Shown: positions 11,659-20,474 of the stretch, piece by piece
Numbering within the stretch: the first letter of the stretch is position 1
How the letters are laid out: the number at the start of each line of letters is the position of its first letter
Source: Tubulanus polymorphus
Taxonomy: Eukaryota; Nemertea; Palaeonemertea; Tubulaniformes; Tubulanidae
Direction of reading: 5' to 3'
NCBI RefSeq assembly: GCF_964204645.1
Contig: NC_134025.1
Coordinates: 5,213,001 to 5,277,000 of the forward strand
Length of the DNA stretch: 64,000 nucleotides
Notes under the pieces: generated by a model
What the model was told of the DNA's origin: nothing
Databases searched by the model: none
Seen by the model: the letters and a program-made list of their open reading frames with translations, nothing else
Translations under genes and position numbers: made by a program

Positions 11659-14600
11659 TCACTCATCAACGGGTAACTGAACGCCGGGGTATGGTTCGGA
11701 TGGCGATGGCTGCGGCGGAACTATCGGCACGATGTTCGCCACATCGATGGCATCAGGTACAACAGCAGCGACTGGTGCTGCCTGTAGAGCCGGTATCTGA
11801 TCGATTTCCCCGTCTGCAGCTGCAGCAGCAAGATTCGTAATCGATTTACTTTTAACGCATTGAAAATCCACATGCCGGCTTTTATTCTCCTCTTTTTCCC
11901 ACGACATACGGATAAATGGCCGCTGAACATAGTTGTAAATCACTGTAAATCAGAAGAACTCAAACTAAGCATAAAATAATTTACAGTTATTTTCACTTGC
12001 TGTCGAAATAGTAACCCGTTTTATCACATGGCTACGGATAAATCTTACCTTCTGGTCGCGCTCCAGGGCGACGTTTTATTTTCTCTTTGTACGTCGGATA
12101 GCCTTCTATACCCAAGCGTATTTTTTTCAAGCCTCGTTCCTTTAACACCTGTTTCGCAACATCTCGGTTTTCGATATATTTGAAGAACCTGTATAGATGC
12201 GTATTATGGATAACTGAAAAGAAAATTGATTGCGTATTTGTATTGCCCTACATGACATTATTTTATACCTGAAATTAATGGTTACAATCATGCAGATGCA
12301 GAAAATATTCAAAAGCCTAACTTCTTAGAAACGACGAATTAATTTATTTCCTAACAACATGAAAGATGACTTACAGACCAGACTGCCATTAGGAACACAT
12401 TTTAGGAGATATGTTTTATTTTTCAGAATTGAACCAAAGAATTTTTTGTTTTAGAAAAATGGAATAGAGATGTGACATACTTTGAGTATATTCTTCACCC
12501 ATCTGTGGTGGATAATCTTCATCCCAGTCAACAATATCTTCTTCCGTTAGAACAACAATGTGACATTCACGATCTCCTTTCTAGAAGATATAACATTCAT
12601 TCATAAAAAAAACAGTAGCGCCATCTATTAACTGCAAAGGATACCGTACATACTCTAATTTCAATGTTAATATTTCTACAGAACTGGCTTACCTGTGCGC
12701 AGTGAACCATCAGAGGTAAAATATAGTGGTCAAGAAAGTCCTGGAATTGGAGACGCGCTCCATCATTCGATAATTCATGGAGTAAGGCACCTAACAAAAT
12801 TGATCAATTTGATTATGACATTATCAATAAACAAATGAACAATATGGTTAACACGTCTTTATTAGTGACAATTTTCAGCTCGATTTTGTAATCATTCAAC
12901 TTCACTTTAAAGTGAATAGATTTGAATGAATGCTCTCTGCCAAAATACTTACGCAGATTCTGACATTTCACTGTTGTAGCATCAAATGGTATGAGTAGAT
13001 AATCACACGCCTCCCTCAGTTCTGGTACTGATATACTAGGAGGACATCGCACGCATCCACATTTGTAGTAATCCTGTAATCAAAGGGGAACAAATCTGTA
13101 TCAAATATAGATGGATCGAGCGTGTATTTCCAGAAAACTATTTCTTTAAATCTTAATCCACGGATAATACATTGGATTTGTACCTACTGAGGGTAGGTCC
13201 AAAAAAGATTATCTATTATTCATGGCAGTAGCCAAAAATAGATTTATCTAAGTTATGAATTATCCAAACTGAATGATTAATTAAGTAAGTAGGATAGAAT
13301 TAAATTCAAAGCTCTTACAAAACATAACTTACCAATATAGCTCTAAAAACAGTAGCAGATATTCCTTCAGCTACATCGAATTCCCCGCGATCATTGGGCC
13401 GAGTAAAATTGTTATCTAATGATGAAGTAAACATTCTGAAAGTGATAAATCAAACATCAGCAAAATTTGGAAACAAAAACGACTCAAAATAATTACAGAA
13501 ATATAGATAGAACTGGTAGACTAACATACCTGCCAAGCATTGTATTCGGATGTGAACGGAATATATCGGGATCGACCACAAAGCGAGTATCATCAACAAC
13601 TAACGTCAATCGTTCCGAATGTCTCGATCTGTTCACATTATGAGACTCAATACGCGATGAACCGTTTCCATTATTGTCACTATTTCCCGATGTAGCACCT
13701 TTTTGATTACGAGCCGGACTACCACTGGATAAACATGACCGTAGTCGATTGCGGGCAGCCGCATTACTGTTCGCTGGTTGTATGGATGAGGCGGCAGCGC
13801 CGATCTCTCCGTCCGAAGCATTCAAATCTAGTTTGTCCATTTCGTCTACAGCACAGTCATCTTCCCCTTCTGTACTAGTATGACTTCCTCTGTGTACTAG
13901 ACACGGTTTTGAACGAGGTGGTTTAATAGAACTAAAATGAAAAATCAGGATTAAAATAAATAAACACATTGTTATGAAATGTCTATAACAATATTTCCGA
14001 CCTGTGGCAATTATGTCCATGTTATCACCTATTGAGATCTCACCTATGTCTTTTAATGCAAGTTCGTCTTCTTTCGTCAATTTCTGAGAATTCGGTGTCA
14101 CTACTGCTATCATATTCTCTAGTCGGCTTACGATGTGCCATACCACACAAAGTGTTAGGCACGTAGCCAGATGTATGTAGCTGGCCCGTGAGTCTTCGTA
14201 TTAAATGTCGATAAAATCATCAATAATTTCTCAGTCACCATATCTACAAACCAAATATGAAATAAAGATCATATAATTATGGAGGAATTGTGTAAGATGT
14301 TGATTTATTTTGGCAATACAAAATTGAATCGTGAAACTGAATGACTATTTTGACTGAATTGAATTTGTTGCTAATTTTCATCAGTGACGGTGTGTGTTAT
14401 TCGGTTGTCTTCGAGTTTGTTTCTCGTTATCTGTGTAACTGAATGACACCGGCAAATATTTCACTTCAGAATATAGAAGACTATCGCAGAACCCATGAAC
14501 AATTACCATATTGCCATCGACCAGTCCTCTTGATGCAATTTATTCCAAGAACTTCATTTGATAAACACCAACCCGGAAGTAATTTTGCATCAGGTGGCAG

Positions 14601-20474: not shown

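Follow-up and report, generated by a model that had tools for sequence, protein, structure and literature searches.

How does a gene come through an internal duplication that would be expected to break it, and does the complementary loss of exons from the two resulting copies imply selection for a division of labour between them? These questions are raised by a BTBD10-like gene on the minus strand (11662–20474) of the window, that is, the whole 64 kb stretch of DNA that was analysed; the features below lie on that strand unless noted otherwise. The gene has 11 coding exons, and its product contains a complete BTB_3 domain (PF16017, E = 3.9e-52, 175 bits, profile positions 1–106 of 106), the domain of BTBD10/KCTD20. 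Binding of Akt and PP2A is a biochemical property of BTBD10/KCTD20. These proteins act as Akt regulators in mammals (PMC3827329). The product of the present gene resembles them in its complete BTB_3 domain, and we saw no sign of altered protein function in it. No further copy of the gene was found in the 268 Mb assembly, a search of prokaryote genome contigs for stray animal contigs returned no relatives of it, and solved structures include no close relative, only the distant gigaxonin BTB.

A preliminary description of this DNA had claimed a tandem duplication running from mid-exon 7 to mid-exon 3, which should be visible in a self dot-plot and in the identity between the copies. Self-alignment of the 64 kb window bears this out, in that it yields one strong repeat set of five collinear direct-repeat blocks (13324–16398 against 18078–19948; best E 6e-111, identity 67–85%), the window holding nothing else of comparable strength. 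The downstream unit in the gene, unit A (~13036–16411, ~3.38 kb), carries the 3′ part of exon 3 that belongs to a hybrid exon, a relic of exon 4 (4A), exons 5A and 6A, and the first 38 nt of exon 7. The upstream unit, unit B (~16412–19959, ~3.55 kb), carries exons 3B and 4B, relics 5B and 6B, and the 5′ part of exon 7 (7B). Alignment and reading of the junction place one breakpoint near 13036, ~38 nt inside exon 7, and the other near 19959, ~15 nt inside exon 3, so that the two copies originally proposed (13024–16380 and 16400–19930) stand, with coordinates that were 10–30 bp off the refined breakpoints. The units meet near 16411/16412, where mid-exon 7 is joined to mid-exon 3 with at most a base or so in common, and exons 3 and 7 were never duplicated in full. 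A global alignment gives 78.5% identity between the units (1028 of 1309 of the better-aligned columns, with the 3′ part of exon 5 excluded), and that excluded part is identical at 163 of 168 positions. Differences specific to one unit comprise 766 bp missing from B, ~390 bp extra in 4A, and a GPCR-like insert in B. The present exon order is 1-2-3B-4B-5B-6B-(7B/3A)-4A-5A-6A-7-...-11. Adjacent direct copies in one order and on one strand, a single junction, single-copy flanking exons, and confinement to one gene make the locus a clear case of a known event type, intragenic tandem duplication, of which it is a further instance.

The copies have decayed in a complementary manner. Exons 3B, 4B, 5A, 6A and 7A are intact, and 4A, 5B, 6B and the 7B/3A hybrid are broken, in agreement with the pattern first reported, including the lost acceptor of exon 5B. 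Relic 4A (15557–16198) has lost its frame and holds the ~390 bp of extra DNA, for which a comparison with known repeats gave only short partial matches elsewhere in the genome; a short AT-rich palindrome (15553–15596) edges this extra DNA, has a 33-bp match at 97% elsewhere in the genome, and may belong to a small mobile element. Relic 5B (18312–18610) has its acceptor and 5′ end deleted and contains an in-frame stop and a 66-bp deletion; its donor is intact, and its 3′ part is 97% identical to 5A. Relic 6B (18087–18184) keeps its splice sites, has lost its frame with net indels of −4 and −1, and contains stops. The hybrid 7B/3A (16292–16446), which spans the duplication junction, has a strong acceptor and a strong donor and contains a stop codon.

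A continuous reading frame nevertheless runs through both units. Joining the coding part of exon 1 with its start codon (20465–20474), exon 2 (20073–20186), exon 3B (19846–19974), exon 4B (19502–19751), exon 5A (13530–13931), exon 6A (13333–13435), exon 7 (12953–13073), exon 8 (12693–12790), exon 9 (12481–12580), exon 10 (12049–12213) and exon 11 (11662–11942, with the stop codon next) gives 591 open codons. When paths built on homologous splice sites were tested, this was the only one open over its full length; every tested path that used 4A, 6B or the hybrid exon met a stop or lost the frame. A scan of all AG sites showed that 5B could be entered in frame from 4B only through poor acceptors well inside the exon (scores of about −2 to −12). 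All splice scores given here come from a simple consensus with general site frequencies and are rough. The open frame and the intact sites suggest that the 19502–13931 splice junction is in use. A single weak candidate for an additional in-frame cassette between 4B and 5A lies in the hybrid (16411–16322) and was dismissed. The full in-phase frame first described thus holds, but an ATG at 14141, inside unit A, also opens an in-frame way into the BTB-coding exons.

We consider it likely that a single duplication, a splice jump from 4B to 5A, decay of the skipped exons and a later conversion in exon 5 together produced this arrangement. The starting point is a single tandem duplication inside the BTBD10-like gene, whose breakpoints fall in exons 7 and 3 and whose junction shows little or no homology. 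Judging from the present junction, the hybrid exon would have measured ~152 nt at birth, which is wrong for the phase between exon 6 and exon 4, so that inclusion of all exons would break the frame, probably from the start, and gene function would have needed a splice jump between the units. This jump could have been made at one of four places (3B to 4A, 4B to 5A, 5B to 6A or 6B to 7A), and the open frame indicates that the 4B-to-5A jump was the one fixed. The skipped exons would then have been freed from selection and would have decayed by deletion, frameshift and insertion, toward the end state observed today. Part of exon 5 would later have been re-homogenised by gene conversion between the copies, and the dead exons and later insertions now compose the 5.6 kb intron 4.

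Little in this history would have been open to choice. Exon 3 was severed in unit A and exon 7 in unit B by the duplication itself, so that each of these exons had a single usable copy from birth. Because the transcript is collinear and B is read before A, the exons retained can comprise only a leading portion of B and then a trailing portion of A. Truncation at the breakpoints and collinearity therefore leave the switch point alone free, as one of four. For a gene that stays functional and whose unused exons come under relaxed selection, complementary decay is to be expected, and the pattern is the expected neutral outcome, with no special repair process. The loss had earlier been described as a division of labour; it is indeed complementary, with B giving exons 3–4 and A giving exons 5–7, but it was largely forced by the breakpoints and collinearity.

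The 3′ part of exon 5 departs from the general divergence of the units. Within it, 5A and 5B share an identical run of 109 bp (13584–13692 and 18366–18474), against a longest run of 49 in 2000 shuffles. Protein selection alone is insufficient to account for this run because it contains no synonymous differences; from the letters of the two copies, it is best explained as a later gene conversion tract, which we regard as likely, and nucleotide-level constraint may be an alternative cause. Near the run, valine replaces phenylalanine and isoleucine replaces threonine in the BTB-coding segment of 5B, as expected for an unconstrained copy.

Other readings of the locus turn largely on its splice sites and its start codons. 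Clean skipping from 4B to 5A would not be obvious from the sequence because the 4B donor (TAA/GTATTT, −5.9) is the weakest in the gene and the sites of the hybrid are strong (acceptor 6.1, donor 7.6), forming the best pair in intron 4 and ranking among the best in the gene; the weakness of the 4B donor is probably ancestral, since 4A keeps the same donor sequence. The hybrid or 6B might still be spliced into part of the transcripts as a regulatory poison exon that sends them to decay. Its strong acceptor-donor pair would suit the hybrid to this role, 6B has both of its splice sites, inclusion of either leads to early stops, and the relics retain most of their splice sites with little alteration, 4 of 68 positions differing from the functional ones in a hand count from the global alignment. 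This divergence lies below a neutral expectation of 15–20% (p 0.02 to 0.001) but not below one of 10–11% (p 0.12–0.18), so the retention of sites fits neutrality at the lower rates, and the relic exon sequences are as diverged as introns; we therefore regard a poison exon as quite unlikely. Duplicated units that merely reflect two haplotypes or misjoined reads set in tandem by the assembly are scarcely credible, because the units are too diverged (~21%) and the junction between mid-exon 7 and mid-exon 3 too precise, falling within exons with matching unit ends; multiple indels are specific to one unit, and the window has no gap.

Two alternative starts would bypass the upstream exons. The ATG at 14141 opens a candidate first exon (14141–14044) with a good donor (5.3) that would join 5A in the correct phase and give 456 open codons, and a candidate second promoter in unit A, driving this exon and exons 5A–11, would have rendered the duplication harmless and fixed the surviving copy of exons 5–7. 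Such a promoter would account for the keeping of the A copies of these exons, and its first exon lies in unique sequence, a repeat or inserted element at 13950–14680 having been ruled out by the uniqueness of that interval in the genome. The codon usage of 14044–14141, however, stands at the 84th percentile of stop-free pieces, a second open frame overlaps it, and a profile search gave no domain match for the candidate exon; we consider a second promoter unlikely. Relic 5B, spliced to 6A, could likewise provide an alternative start, since from an ATG at 18562 its frame stays open as far as the donor and matches that of 6A, giving 373 codons, and its high identity to 5A would fit such use; its two altered residues and an identical run that conversion explains better than protein selection does make this highly improbable. 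We give correspondingly little credence to the broader proposal that the relics are still recognised by the spliceosome and act together in regulation as poison exons or alternative starts, the duplication having been tolerated thanks to an internal promoter in unit A. The single duplication followed by a 4B-to-5A jump remains our preferred account.

Intron 4 (13932–19501) is now 5,570 bp long and contains all the relic exons, whereas the equivalent intron in unit A (15556–13932) measures 1,625 bp. The intron was first said to have grown fivefold by absorbing dead exons; the relics do lie inside it, but the growth is only 3.4-fold, and ~1.5 kb of it is a GPCR-containing stretch and not dead exons. 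This stretch holds, in relic intron 6B, a single-exon, rhodopsin-type GPCR-like sequence (16949–17880, plus strand; 7tm_1, 1.2e-12), which lies on the strand opposite to the BTBD10-like gene and has a frameshift near its first two helices; ~40 relatives, at ~68% DNA identity, are present among the genome matches listed. Separately, the palindrome TACCGGTA occurs seven times in the window (at 614, 10867, 15140, 16109, 16319, 18545 and 28077; 0.33 expected) and 12,036 times genome-wide, against ~3,400–3,500 for two palindromes of like composition, and TAGGCCTA is even more over-represented genome-wide (21,131). The units differ by the presence or absence of the 6-bp TACCGG, found at 16319 in A only and at 18545 in B only, as if by small insertions or excision footprints at TA sites.

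In duplication-degeneration-complementation (subfunctionalisation), each copy retains, after duplication, parts that the other has lost. The complementary loss at this locus, where both units are needed, is similar, but the copies lie within one transcription unit, no subfunction is split among products, and collinearity together with the breakpoints dictates the pattern; the direction of loss was not free, since 3A and 7B were cut by the breakpoints. Tandem duplication within genes is a recognised way in which introns change (PMC3443670, PMC4974935); internal tandem gene duplication with intron change is attributed to Gao and Lynch 2009 in PMC3443670, and the potato RdRp provides a case (PMC4974935). 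The present locus shares with these systems breakpoints inside exons, exonic sequence turned intronic, and splice sites that the parent gene already had. It differs in that the duplicated segment covers several exons and in that an existing intron has been enlarged by four relic exons, with no new intron position. Tandemly duplicated exons occur in ~10% of animal genes, as a passage of PMC9013439 cites from a 2002 study, and include mutually exclusive exons (PMC9013439, PMC9741552). As in those genes, exon copies here stand side by side within one gene; unlike them, no alternative pair exists because only one exon of each pair remains sound, 4A, 5B, 6B and the hybrid being broken and 5B lacking an acceptor. 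In the literature searched, we found no direct precedent for complementary exon decay within one gene.

These results indicate that complementary decay within one gene need not imply selection for a division of labour. The locus offers a readable case both of a gene surviving an internal duplication expected to break it and of an intron enlarging by taking in dead exons, and its steps, a single junction, a frame-breaking hybrid and a switch at one of four places, are readily testable.
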